Positions 49,452-54,801 of a stretch of DNA of 64,000 bases are shown here, in pieces (position 1 is the stretch's first letter; each line of letters begins with the position of its first letter). The notes below the pieces were generated by a model. The model saw only the letters and a program-made list of their open reading frames with translations. It was not told the origin of the DNA and made no database searches. This stretch comes from Nostoc sp. HK-01 (lineage in GTDB: Bacteria; Cyanobacteriota; Cyanobacteriia; Cyanobacteriales; Nostocaceae), in the NCBI GenBank assembly GCA_003990705.1, contig AP018318.1, positions 2,421,501 to 2,485,500 on the forward strand, read 5' to 3'. The position numbers and the translations under genes were made by a program.

Positions 49452-51809
49452 ATGACTTCAAAGAAGCAACCTTTTAAGTTGCCAAGTTTTTATGTACCTT
49501 GGCCAGCACGGTTGAACCCAAACCTGGAAGCAGCACGGGTACATTCTAAAGCTTGGGCTTATGAAATGGGAATTTTGGGAGGAGCAGAAGGCTCAGAAGA
49601 TTATAGAATTTGGGATGAGCGCAAGTTTGATGCCCATGACTACGCACTATTGTGTTCCTATACCCATCCAGATGCCGATGAACAGATGCTCAATCTGGTA
49701 ACTGACTGGTATGTTTGGGTATTTTTCTTCGACGATCACTTCCTTGAGCTTTATAAGCGTACCCAAGATATGGTGGGTGCCAAGAAGTACCTCAATAGAC
49801 TACCAGCGTTTATGCCTGTGCATCCCCAAAAAACGCCGCCAGAACCGACCAATGCCGTAGAAAGAGGTTTAGTCGACCTTTGGAATCGCACCATTCCCAA
49901 TGCCTCCCAAGACTGGGTAATTCGATTTTCGGAAAGTACAATCAATCTTCTGAAAGAATCTCAGTGGGAACTCGCCAATATCAGCCAGGATCGAGTTGCT
50001 AACCCCATTGAGTACATTGAGATGCGCCGTAAGGTAGGGGGAGCGCCCTGGTCAGCTAACCTAGTGGAACACGCGGTTGGGGCAGAAATTCCGGCTGTGA
50101 TCGCGCGCACTCGACCCTTGCGTGTTCTCAAAGACACTTTTTCTGATGGGGTACATCTGCGAAATGACATCCTCTCTTACCAAAGAGAAGTAGAAGAAGA
50201 AGGGGAAAATGCTAACTGTATCTTGGTTTTAGAACGATTCCTTGATGTGAGTACCCAAGAGGCGGCCAACCTCACTAACGACTTACTCACATCTAGAGTG
50301 CAACAGTTCGAGAACACCTTTGTCACAGAGCTTCCTTCCTTGTTTGAGGAATATAGTCTGACTCCTGATGAGCGTCTGAAAGTCGTTCTATATGCCAAAG
50401 GACTTCAGGACTGGCAATCAGGAGGTCATGAGTGGCACATGCGATCGAGCCGCTACATGAACCAGACATCAGACAAATCTTCCACAGCAAGCTGGTTTTT
50501 AGGCGGCCCTATTGGACTAGGCACATCGGCCGCCCGTCTGGGAGACTTACACGATAGTTTGGGACTAAAACGCTTTAAAAGCTTCACTCATGTTCCCTAT
50601 CAACCTGTAGGGCCAGTCACCCTACCACAGTTTTATATGCCCTTTTCCACCAGTTTGAATACCCATCTAGAAGAGGCTAGGCGGCATTCTAAAGAATGGG
50701 CGCGTCAAATGGGGATGCTGGACGTACTGCCAGGAATGCCAGGCATTTTCATCTGGGATGACCACAAATTTGATGTGGCTGACGTAGCCTTATGTGGTGC
50801 TTATATTCATCCCAATGGCTCTAGTGCTGAGTTAAATATCACAGCCTGCTGGTTAGTTTGGGGAACTTATGCTGATGACTACTTCCCTGCACTGTATGGC
50901 TATAGCCGCAACATGGCTGGGGCGAAAATCTTCAACTCTCGGTTATCTGCCTTTATGCCTCTTGATGGAGATGCCATTCCCGAAGCCACCAACCCAGTCG
51001 AACGGGGTTTAGCGGATATTTGGATGCGAACGGCTGGCCCCATGACCCCTAATGCTCGTCGTCAGTTTCGTCGAGCGATTGAAGATATGACAGAAAGTTG
51101 GTTATGGGAATTGGCTAACCAAATCCAAAATCGCATTCCCGACCCGATAGACTATGTGGAAATGCGTCGAAAGACCTTTGGCTCCGATCTAACCATGAGT
51201 CTGTCTCGACTTTCTCAAGGAGATGAGATCCCACCGGAAATCTTTCACACTCGAACTATGCAGAATATCGATAATTCGGCAGCTGATTTCGCCTGTCTGA
51301 CGAACGATATTTTTTCTTATCAAAAAGAAATTGAATTCGAGGGCGAGATTAATAACGGTGTGCTGGCGGTTCAGAATTTCCTTAACTGCGATATCCCCCA
51401 CGCTGTAGCAATTGTTAACGACCTGATGACCTCTCGTGCCATTCAGTTTGAACATATTGTTGCTACTGAACTCCCTGCCTTATGTGATGATTTCGGACTA
51501 GATACAAATACCCGCAAGAAACTGTACGGCTACGTCAAGAAATTAGAACAGTGGATGTGTGGGGTACTCAAATGGCATAGAGCAGTAGACCGCTATCAGG
51601 AATTTGAATTGCGGAATAACTCAACCCAAAAGCGTTTACTTCAAAGCCCTACAGGCTTAGGCACTGCGGCGACTCAGATTAAACCAAGTATTGGTCAGCA
51701 AACAACTCAAACCCATGTTCAGCCAGTGGTGCATAACTTACTGAGTAGTCCAACAGGGTTAGGGACTTCAGCGACCAAAATCGGAACCCTGTTAGGAAGG
51801 AAAGGTTAG
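49452..51809 (+). CDS. geoA: Geosmin synthase (bifunctional germacradienol/geosmin terpene cyclase)
   Basis: A 785-residue protein with two class I terpene cyclase domains. The N-domain has DDHFLE (94-99) and the NSE triad N238, S242, E246 (NDILSYQRE); it turns farnesyl diphosphate into germacradienol. The C-domain has DDYFP (475-479) and N618, S622, E626 (NDIFSYQKE); it makes geosmin. The linker and the C-tail hold three copies of a motif of the type PTGLGTSAT (352-362, 733-743, 767-777), with a Gln/Thr-rich, probably flexible segment between copies two and three. The next two genes code encapsulin shell proteins with a gap of 68 bp. This is the earthy odour compound of many cyanobacteria. 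Confidence 0.96.
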
Positions 51810-51877
51810 CTCAATCTGAGTCTTGATTCCGGTCAATCAAATAGTTTGTCAATAAACACTATCAATGGAGATTCATC

Positions 51878-53287
51878 ATGACTAATACAGCAAATACTCC
51901 CTTAGAAAATCAAATTGAGCAATTGCCAATGAGTTTGCAGACCGAAGCGGCGCGTAATTTGGCAACAACCACCAAAACCCAACCCCAGATGCAGGGCATT
52001 ACCTCACGGTGGCTCTTAAAACTGCTGCCTTGGGTAGAAACAGTGGGTGGTAGCTATCGGGTCAACCGCCGCTTAACCTATACAGTTGGGGATGGACGAG
52101 TCAGCTTTACTAATACAGGCGCTCAAATACAGGTTATTCCGCAAGAACTCACTGAGTTACCTTTGTTGCGGGGATTTGAAGATGCCGGGGTATTAAATGC
52201 TTTAGCTAGTCAATTTGTGCAACAGGAATTTGCTGCCGGAGATGTGATCATACAGGCAGGTCAAGCAGCTGATCAAGTATTGTTGATTGCTCATGGTAAG
52301 GTCAATAAAATTGGCCCAGGCAAATATGACGATCAAGTTGTTTTGGCTGTATTAGCTGATGGCGACCATTTTGGTGACTACGCTTTAGTGGAATCCCAAG
52401 ATATTTGGGATGTGACTCTCACAGCCATTACCCGTTGCACCATTTTGTCTCTGCCTCAAGCAGCCTTTCAAAACCTGGTTAACCAGTCTGAAGCTTTACA
52501 AACGCAAGTAGATCAATTCCGGGCAAAATTGCGCCAACCCAAAAACCAATACGGGGAAGCCTCGATTGATATTACCTCCAGCCACCTTGCAGAGGCAGTA
52601 TTACCTGGGACTTTTGCAGATTATGAAATCAATCCACGAGAATATGAGTTAAGTGTTGCTCAAACCATTTTGCAAATCAACACACGGGTTGCTGACCTCT
52701 ACAACGAACCCATGAATCAGACTGAGGAACAATTGCGCCTCACCATTGAAGCATTACGGGAACGCCAAGAACACGAAATGATTAATAATCGTGACTTCGG
52801 ACTGTTACACAATGCTGATCTCCAACAACGCATCTTTACCCGCAGTGGCCCTCCAACTCCTGACGATCTTGATGAGTTGATCTCTATTGTTTGGAAAGAA
52901 CCGAGCTTTTTCTTAGCTCATCCCCGCACTATTGCTGCTTTTGGTCGGGAATGCAACCGCCTAGGACTCTATCCCGATCCTATCCCTATGGGTAATAGTG
53001 CAATTCCAGCTTGGCGTGGTATTCCCATCTATCCTTGCAATAAGATTCCCGTTACCAAAGAGCGTACTAGCTCCATCATGTTAATGCGTGTGGGAGCAAC
53101 TAACCAGGGTGTCATTGGTCTGCATAAAACTGGTATTCCTGATGAATATCAGCCTAGTTTGTCTGTCCGCTTCATGGGTATTAACGAAAAGGCCGTTATT
53201 TCTTACTTAGTTAGTGCTTACTACTCTACAGCCGTTCTTGTTCCTGATGCTCTAGGCATTCTTGAAGATGTAGAAGTTGGTCTCTAA
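51878..53287 (+). CDS. Family 2B encapsulin shell protein 1 (with cyclic-nucleotide-binding domain)
   Basis: A 469-residue protein. The start ATG 51878 has a ggag ribosome site. N-terminal arm and first E-loop strand ([12 protein letters not shown], 57-68), a cyclic-nucleotide-binding domain (about 95-215, [20 protein letters not shown]), then the shell part with [38 protein letters not shown] (about 344-361) and the C-terminal HK97-type strands [21 protein letters not shown]. No helix-turn-helix follows the nucleotide domain, so it is not a Crp/Fnr regulator. The phosphate cassette reads [17 protein letters not shown] and has no Arg in the place that normally holds the cyclic phosphate. Family 2B shells of this type are known to enclose terpene cyclases such as 2-methylisoborneol synthase in actinomycetes. 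Confidence 0.88.
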
Positions 53288-53391
53288 GTAGTTGGACATC
53301 CTCTCCAAAGTAGGGGCTAATGAAAGTTTGCTCCTACTCTCCAATGCTCTCTTTTATGAATGTCAATTTAGTCGGATGAAACGTTGACTGT

Positions 53392-54801
53392 ATGACAGAT
53401 GCTTTGATTAGGCCTGATTTAGACCAAGAAAACAGGCAACTCCAGATGAGCTTAAGCACCAAAGGGGCGCGGAATTTAGCCAAAACCACGAAAACCCAGC
53501 CCCAGATGCAGGGCATTACTCCTAGGTGGTTGTTACAGATGTTGCCTTGGGTGCAAGTTACGGGTGGGGCTTATCGGGTTAACCGTCGCTTGACATATCC
53601 TGTTGGCAATGGACGGGTTAGCTTTAGCAATATAGGGAATCAAGTAAGAGTCATTCCCCAAACACTTTGTGAACTATCTTTACTGCGCGGGTTTGAGGAT
53701 ATTGAGGTACTCAACGCTTTAGCAGACCGCTTTGTGCAACAAGAATTTGCCCCTGGTGAGGTAATTGTACAGGAAGGTCAAGCAGCCGATCGCGTGTTAT
53801 TAATTGCTCATGGTAAAGTTAATCAGCTGAAGGCAGGCAGATATGAGGCGGAAGCTTTACGGGATATTCTAGCTGATGGCGATTGTTTTGGGGGCGAAGC
53901 TATAGTTCTATCTCAGGAAACTTGGGAGGTTAGCCTAAAAGCTGTTACCCGCTGCATAGTTTTGTCTTTGCCAGTACAAGCGTTTCGGGAGTTGCTCAAC
54001 CAGTCTGAAGCCTTGCAGACCCAGGTCGATCGCTTGAGAGCAATATTGAGCAAACCCCAGGATAGGTATAATCAAGCGGCGATCGCTATGTCTGCGGGTC
54101 ACAGTCCGGAAACTGAGTTGCCCACAACATTTGCTGATTACGACTTGAATCCACGGGAGTATGAGTTAAGCGTCGCGCAAACCATTCTACGGATGAATAC
54201 GCGAGTTGCTGACCTCTACAATGAACCGATGAACCAGACAGAGCAGCAATTACGGCTGACTATTGAAGCGTTGCGGGAACGGCAAGAATACGAAATGCTG
54301 AATAACCCTAATTTCGGGTTGTTGCACAATGCTGATCTCAAGCAACGCATTTATACCCGCACCGGGCCACCAACTCCAGATGATTTTGATGAATTGCTGT
54401 CTCGACGGCGCAAATCCCATTTTTTCCTAGCTCATCCTCGTGCGATCGCTGCTTTTGGCCGGGAGTGTAACCGTCGTGGAATCTATTCCCCCAGCAGAGA
54501 GGTAAATGGCAAGATTGTACCTGCTTGGCGCAACTATCCGATTTTTCCTTCTAACAAAATTCCGATCACCAAGGAGGGTACTAGCTCTATTTTGGTATTC
54601 CGTGTCGGAGAAGAAAACCAAGGGGTAGTAGGTCTACACAAAATGGGTATCCCTGATGAATACCAACCCAGTTTATCTGTGCGGTTTTTGGGTATCAACG
54701 AGAAAGCGATTATTTCTTATCTTGTCACTGCCTACTACTCCACTGCCATTCTCATACCCGATGCACTTGGTATCCTAGAAAATGTCGAAATTGGCTGCTA
54801 A
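53392..54801 (+). CDS. Family 2B encapsulin shell protein 2 (with cyclic-nucleotide-binding domain)
   Basis: A second 469-residue shell protein, about two thirds identical by eye to the first and colinear along the whole length: [18 protein letters not shown], the nucleotide-binding domain ([20 protein letters not shown]), [38 protein letters not shown] and the closing [21 protein letters not shown]. The differences gather in the C-terminal 340-390 region (SRRRKSHFF against [10 protein letters not shown]) and in the nucleotide domain. Its phosphate cassette [17 protein letters not shown] also lacks the Arg. Gap to shell 1 is 104 bp, on the same strand. Together they suggest a shell built from two different subunits. 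Confidence 0.88.

Follow-up and report, generated by a model that had tools for sequence, protein, structure and literature searches.

In a window of 64,000 nucleotides from the cyanobacterium Nostoc sp. HK-01 (contig AP018318.1, positions 2,421,501 to 2,485,500 of the forward strand), a gene for geosmin synthase, geoA, is followed by two genes for Family 2B encapsulin shell proteins, enc1 and enc2. The three genes lie on one strand in the order geoA-enc1-enc2, with spacers of 68 bp (geoA/enc1) and 104 bp (enc1/enc2). These coordinates agree with the original prediction, which was made from the letters alone and proposed that geosmin is produced inside a shell of two subunit types. GeoA scores above the NCBIfam cut-off of 1200 bits for f2_encap_cargo3, the model of geosmin-synthase-type cargo of Family 2 encapsulins, and both 469-residue proteins score above the cut-off of 400 bits for encap_f2b (Table 1). 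The profile search thus bears out both the shell family and the likely cargo, and the identification of the three genes is far beyond chance. Enc1 and Enc2 are the sole matches over the Family 2B cut-off in the host genome (7.5 Mb, 8 contigs), where seven weaker encap_f2b matches are confined to the part that resembles a cyclic-nucleotide-binding domain. The closest relatives of geoA, 91-92% identical, are from Desmonostoc, Nostoc and Brasilonema.

Table 1 Features of the geoA-enc1-enc2 locus, in positions of the window.
Feature	Position	Strand	Details
Candidate regulatory element, tandem array (CTTAACTGT)n of a 9-bp unit upstream of geoA	48942..49001	+	
geoA, two-domain geosmin synthase, putative cargo	49452..51809	+	785 aa; NF041168 f2_encap_cargo3, 1238.3 bits
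Interdomain putative loading tag, residues 352-362	50505..50537	+	GLGT at residue 355; consensus from PMC8346489
First C-terminal putative tag, residues 732-742	51645..51677	+	GLGT at residue 735
Second C-terminal putative tag, residues 766-776	51747..51779	+	GLGT at residue 769
enc1, Family 2B encapsulin shell protein, Enc1 type	51878..53287	+	469 aa; NF041163, 767.3 bits
Cyclic-nucleotide-binding-like domain of Enc1, residues 116-203	52223..52486	+	PF00027, 58.3 bits
Enc1 diagnostic motif 1, IVWK, residues 337-340	52886..52897	+	Sl-Enc1 has TVWK (PMC12407261)
enc2, Family 2B encapsulin shell protein, Enc2 type	53392..54801	+	469 aa; NF041163, 752.9 bits
Enc2 diagnostic motif 1, RRRK, residues 338-341	54403..54414	+	Sl-Enc2 has RRRK (PMC12407261)
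GNAT acetyltransferase gene	54843-55325	+	starts 41 bp after enc2

Two types of shell protein

By sequence profile, both shell proteins contain an HK97-type Family 2 encapsulin domain. With Pfam at E values up to 0.1, residues 216-468 match the SrpI-like encapsulin family (444.7 bits in Enc1, 435.0 bits in Enc2), and a cNMP_binding match (PF00027; 58.3 and 55.9 bits, residues 117-204 in Enc2) precedes this region within the full-length encap_f2b match. No helix-turn-helix family of Pfam was found in either protein at the same threshold, so that neither shows the C-terminal helix-turn-helix of a Crp/Fnr regulator. This domain content and the encapsulin phrases on which the original prediction relied are present in both proteins. 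The cyclic-nucleotide-binding-like insert is expected in the E-loop, because solved relatives have it there. Residue W177 of Enc1, almost invariant across 32 rows, is aligned with an arginine of the protein kinase A regulatory chain 5kbf that we take to be its phosphate-binding residue. Since a tryptophan stands in place of this arginine, and since the insert of Family 2B shells has been shown, according to PMC12407261, not to bind cyclic nucleotides, the insert probably does not bind them here.

Both proteins are similar over their full length to the solved shells 9bje, 9bix and 9bhu. The closest relative in the PDB is 9bje (Sl-Enc1 of Streptomyces lydicus) for Enc1 and 9bix (Sl-Enc2) for Enc2. 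The diagnostic motif 1 reads, in context, IVWKEP in gene 1 and RRRKS in gene 2, and the two adjacent Family 2B genes thus have the arrangement of a two-component system, with the Enc1 type (VWK) upstream and the Enc2 type (RRRK) downstream, as the proposal of two subunit types had implied. A compensated frameshift in gene 2, suggested by a local mismatch in the alignment, was rejected because the mismatch is the published Enc2 motif. The shell 9bhu/9bhv/9bi0, which presumably belongs to a single-component 2-methylisoborneol system with one shell protein and a single-domain cyclase as cargo, is homologous to both Nostoc proteins over their full length but has the motif RRRG. VWKEP is shared by Enc1 and two Family 2A shells, 8t6r and 6x8m, and from this distribution VWK looks ancestral and RRR derived.

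A geosmin synthase with a Family 2B shell pair is an already predicted kind of system, of which this locus is a member. Its novelty is smaller than the original prediction assumed, because the gene set is already covered by two earlier studies (PMC8346489 and PMC7251104). Family 2B shells, those of cyanobacteria among them, were predicted by Andreas and Giessen (2021) to take geosmin-synthase-like cargo; their study lists 904 operons that combine a Family 2B shell with a terpene cyclase, 64 of them cyanobacterial, and raises two-component shells (PMC8346489). Their operons resemble the Nostoc locus in the tagged cargo, the cyanobacterial members and the frequent presence of two shells, but two tags are described there and three are found in Nostoc geoA. 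The identical three genes in identical order were reported as the geoA-cnb-cnb cluster of cyanobacteria and Deltaproteobacteria, where the shell genes were read as global transcription regulators of the Crp/Fnr type (PMC7251104). Two Family 2B shell proteins can co-assemble (Dutcher 2025), and Sl-Enc1 and Sl-Enc2 do so in one particle of about 28 nm (PMC12407261). The S. lydicus genes are likewise adjacent, Enc1 then Enc2, with VWK against RRRK at motif 1 and the cyclic-nucleotide-binding-like insert in both subunits; however, they belong to an actinomycete xylulose-kinase operon and were characterised without cargo, whereas the Nostoc locus is cyanobacterial and has a geosmin synthase as putative cargo. 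No physical proof of geosmin synthase encapsulation was found in the searchable literature.

The putative cargo and its proposed loading tags

Geosmin, a common off-flavour of drinking water, is made by geosmin synthase from farnesyl diphosphate by way of germacradienol. The Pfam family Terpene_syn_C_2 matches geoA in two stretches. Residues D94 D95 E99 and N238 D239 S242 E246, together with D475 D476 and N618 D619 S622 E626, which we take to be metal-binding motifs, are unchanged across 24 aligned rows, and both cyclase domains retain these motifs.

For geosmin-synthase-like cargo, a possible loading tag has been proposed that occurs in the interdomain stretch and again at the C-terminal end (PMC8346489). 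The window geoA has three putative GLGT tags, with the C-terminal one doubled, and so have its six nearest relatives (L009, L010, L011, L012, L041 and L044); the remaining 17 cyanobacterial geoA genes of the sample have one or two. The C-terminal tag is doubled too in Enhygromyxa (L036), in Pseudonocardiales (L048) and weakly in Actinomadura (L081). The analysis directly shows the gene identities, the Enc1 and Enc2 types, the tags at the level of sequence, the conserved linkage and the preserved catalytic motifs. In Microcoleus CAWBG506, tandem geoA genes (56% and 72% identical to the window geoA) are followed by one shell pair (L026:3705-8274).

Geosmin synthase and shells in other genomes

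The association was examined in a sample of 386 genomes from a larger cyanobacterial set, which include the host genome and in part repeat the relatives' loci (e.g. G101 and L009), with shell matches accepted at E up to 1e-60. geoA is present in 12 of them, and two full-length Family 2B shells adjoin it in all 12. A full-length 2B shell occurs in three of the 374 genomes that lack geoA, as a pair in G039 and singly in G229 and G262, which gives p about 2e-20 for the co-occurrence if kinship is ignored. In G229, the gene that follows the shell scores above the cut-off of the model for cysteine desulfurase cargo. Seven more cyanobacterial genomes match the shell only from about residue 209 on, and these partial matches look like Family 2A. 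The arrangement of the genes was compared among relatives, at 40 loci that contain two full shells. Enc1 precedes Enc2 in 39 of these, L036 having Enc1 and an untyped shell, and geoA stands first in 30, between the shells in 9 and last in 1.

In G039, the cargo gene beside Enc1 and Enc2 (L101:10314-12104, minus strand) encodes a 596-aa fusion. Over residues 1-109 it matches the starts of long open reading frames (ORFs) in six congeners at 88-93% identity, three of these ORFs being geoA, and a seventh congener at 64%. The second part, which stands in for most of geoA, is another, single-domain cyclase; in a search of 291 genomes of the order, its best other match reached 31% identity. The third part contains three GLGT tags. 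If real, this is possibly a natural cargo swap that retained the tag, although it is found in a single genome and an assembly error is conceivable.

Among 276 Actinomycetota genomes, geoA is present in 12, all of which have a full-length 2B shell, and the 264 genomes without geoA contain one full-length 2B shell (G655) and one partial, 2A-like match (G570). This co-occurrence carries little weight, because geoA and shell are unlinked in 9 of the 12, most of these nine are genomes of 7-10 Mb and may be one clade, and G391 was included by construction. The genomes of unlinked, single-shell or broken-shell geoA loci (L030, L043, L052 and others; G386-G421) have a Family 2B match at E 1e-60 or better in 36 of 36 cases, 35 of them over the cut-off, which would allow geosmin synthase in these genomes to be loaded in trans. 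One actinobacterial contig (L226:4009-5439, minus strand) has a geosmin shell gene with the motif RRRD and, about 4 kb off, another encapsulin shell gene, of VW type (VWRKP), with a 513-aa gene alongside.

Evolution of the shell pair

Comparison of the relatives suggests how two shell genes stay distinct. Shells were typed by motif 1, which therefore sorts the types perfectly by construction. In a whole-protein tree (92 rows; seven ORFs were left out, six under 440 aa and one fragment of a broken gene), the shells sort mostly by phylum and not by type, with 8 label changes in the three groups together. A single Enc1 clade was tested on 46 rows, which represent 23 pairs picked from the 40 typed ones before testing. 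It is rejected for residues 1-330 (log-likelihood 312 lower, p 5.5e-68), 20-143 (p 2.7e-5), 207-330 (p 4.5e-4) and 411-469 (p 0.028), and is not rejected for residues 346-469 (17.8 lower, p 0.15) or 346-410 (1.6 lower, p 0.45); one of the rejecting segments is shorter than 346-410. In 91 rows, the type label changes 8 times in residues 1-100, 10 times each in 101-228 and 229-330, 6 times in 346-469, 16 times in 411-469 and 3 times in 346-410. Thus one stretch of the shell gene preserves an old division into Enc1 and Enc2 that the remainder no longer shows. These results suggest that the difference is maintained against homogenisation around residues 346-410, and that the shell genes are mosaics, with the old split near the diagnostic motifs and homogenisation within lineages elsewhere.

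Gene conversion was scanned for as the longest identical Enc1-Enc2 run in each of 40 pairs, the window included, with 1000 codon shuffles each. Five pairs have long runs: 603 nt in L020 (shuffle maximum 149), 304 in L056 (65), 255 in L086 (66), 229 in L029 (100) and 181 in L071 (68). The longest run in the other 35 is 68 nt or less, and the window pair has no recent tract (longest run 20 nt, p 0.29). L020 is a metagenome assembly, and the other four are not so marked in their titles. All five tracts lie outside motif 1 (337-341), but they are probably three events, too few to prove that the motif is avoided. A full-text literature search for encapsulin with 'gene conversion' matched a single paper, which deals with giant viruses, and the term is absent from the main text of PMC12407261. 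What this analysis adds concerns evolution: a pair of shell genes homogenised by conversion except for an island that preserves their identities, and a single residue that marks two-component shells.

The marker is the fourth residue of motif 1, which is Lys in 39 of the 40 Enc2-type shells with an Enc1 partner, the window included (L085 has Ser), and in none of the 8 single shells of geosmin systems (Ser 4, Asp 2, Asn 1, Gly 1). This count omits L036 (untyped), L021 (cut by a contig end), L018 and L019 (partial) and the broken ORFs L050 and L065 (the latter reads RRRS), and it scores L080 as a single shell despite a second, VW-type shell about 4 kb away. Within Actinomycetota alone, Lys is found in 8/8 paired and 0/7 single shells. 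A separate check set of 39 hand-picked places with geoA unlinked or absent (L188, which repeats L031, was omitted; a few singles lie near contig ends) gave Lys in 4 of 5 pairs (L187 has Ser) and in 1 of 33 single RR-type shells (L222, MRRK), with one VWK-type shell besides (p 3e-4, ignoring kinship). The residue after VWK is Glu in 34 and Asp in 8 of 42 relatives' Enc1, where the typing pattern demanded an acid, and Asp in 3 and Asn in 2 of the five pairs of the check set. Motif 1 lies at the pentamer contact between neighbours (PMC12407261), and the Enc2 Lys perhaps forms a charge pair with the acid that usually follows the Enc1 VWK across this contact.

We tentatively propose, at somewhat less than even odds, that conversion matches scaffold and insert within each lineage, so that the two subunits form one co-evolving unit, that selection guards an A-domain island at about residues 331-410 (motifs 1 and 2) by which Enc1 and Enc2 differ, and that Lys marks partnered shells and is lost in single-component ones. 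If this is true, motif 1 would predict a heteromeric Family 2B shell from sequence alone. The mosaic history and the Lys marker together would give a sequence test for two-component Family 2B shells, and would point to residues that may explain the use of two near-identical subunits.

The proposed nanocompartment and its alternatives

In the model that we propose, the three GLGT-type tags (one interdomain, two C-terminal) would tether GeoA to the inside of a shell to which Enc1 and Enc2 both contribute subunits, where it would turn farnesyl diphosphate into germacradienol and then geosmin. The two subunits would have the HK97 scaffold and the E-loop insert in common and would keep their A-domain faces separate, with motif 1 at the pentamer neighbour contact and motif 2 facing the lumen. 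Because these faces are separate, both subunits would be needed for a normal shell, and encapsulation may hold germacradienol near the second active site. The HK97 shell, the co-assembly and the cargo loading are expected here by analogy with relatives, and we infer the need for both subunits and the retention of germacradienol. If the operon works in this way, geosmin output would depend on a nano-shell. The model is favoured by the profile scores of all three genes, the full-length similarity to solved shells, the presence of two shells next to every cyanobacterial geoA of the genome sample, the near-constant Enc1-Enc2 order, the discordance of residues 346-410 with the rest of the protein and the tagged cyclase of G039. 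We put the probability that tagged GeoA lies inside a mixed Enc1/Enc2 shell, with both subunits needed for its normal form, at about 0.85.

Several observations weigh against this model. The operon is known here from its genes alone, and structure prediction of Enc1 was weak (mean predicted local distance difference test score 61.1, predicted template modelling score 0.40) and is not enough on its own to establish the HK97 fold. Most Streptomyces geoA genes of the sample have no shell gene in the flanks retrieved. The interdomain GLGT is found in 39 of the 54 geoA genes that are linked to a shell and in 12 of the 27 that are not (p 0.027, ignoring kinship), and a C-terminal tag, loosely defined, in 43 and 24 of them, respectively; the tag is no strict sign of linkage between geoA and shell, and we rejected tag retention as proof of encapsulation, given this weak association in which kinship is ignored. 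The S. lydicus shell is tiled irregularly with all contacts allowed, and Sl-Enc2 forms shells alone (PMC12407261), so that both subunits may not be needed.

Enc1 and Enc2 could instead be Crp/Fnr-type transcription regulators of geoA, in line with the usual annotation of the cluster. The cNMP_binding domain of both proteins and the name used in PMC7251104 and in the PDB records of relatives speak for this, but the PDB relatives so named are solved shell proteins, no helix-turn-helix family is found at E up to 0.1, and residues 216-468 match the SrpI-like encapsulin family at 435-445 bits; we consider such regulators highly improbable. The two proteins might also form separate, unmixed particles, or Enc1 might be a vestigial duplicate, as could be expected from the assembly of Sl-Enc2 alone and from the existence of single-shell geosmin systems, of which 8/8 counted are RRR-type. 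This is unlikely, given that Sl-Enc1 does not assemble alone yet enters mixed shells (PMC12407261), that the Enc1-Enc2 order is fixed in 39/40 loci and that the type difference is retained around the motifs. A history of separate duplications in each phylum, with convergent motifs and without gene conversion, would agree with the whole-protein tree and its label changes, but it is hard to reconcile with an Enc1 clade that is tolerated at residues 346-410 and rejected in three other segments, or with identical tracts that span 181-603 nt where shuffles reach at most 65-149; we regard it as about as improbable as separate particles.

Flanking features

The 9-bp array upstream of geoA gives 3 matches in the window at up to 3 mismatches, against a mean of 0.13 in shuffles. 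Of 23 cyanobacterial loci, 18 have (CTTAACTGT)n or close period-9 variants in the 800 bp that precede geoA. The distance is about 300-680 bp in 17 of these and 780 bp in L011; none was found in this range in L013, L021, L022, L023 and L026. The exact CTTAACTGT dimer has 3 copies in the host genome and is present in 2 of 12 other genomes with a shell pair and in 52 of 145 genomes of the family (Nostocaceae-type), and the reversed pattern has one match across all 145. At 20 array sites in four other genomes, the nearest gene is core biosynthetic by our own classification in six cases (two ketosynthases, geoA, two MvdD-type ATP-grasp enzymes and one AMP-binding enzyme), versus none of 20 control points 60 kb away that were not matched for intergenic position (p 0.02); an ORF of 131 aa encloses one of the 20 sites. 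Another 17 sites, none of them at geoA, come from the host genome, G101 and G376, and for most of these one flank was put to Pfam. A core biosynthetic gene flanks the array in five of the 17, in two of which it is not the nearest gene. In places, the sites precede nonribosomal peptide synthetase, polyketide synthase, MvdD-type or TerB genes. TAACTGA direct repeats with possible regulatory roles have been described in cyanobacteria (PMC4679880). The array may help to regulate specialised metabolism, or it may belong to a family of repeats that settles beside such genes.

Downstream of enc2, the GNAT acetyltransferase gene is possibly co-transcribed with it, because the spacing is short (41 bp) and a terminator-like hairpin of 15 pairs, the longest of the scan, lies 3' of the GNAT gene (55477-55509). 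We rejected this gene as a fourth member of the operon, as its sole match in loci L009-L106, many of which extend only a few kb beyond the shells, is in L101 (42% identical). Opposite enc1, positions 51914-52422 of the minus strand match Rfam RF02735 (Sernc350, a Saccharopolyspora antisense RNA) at 74.7 bits, which probably reflects the conserved coding sequence of the shell.

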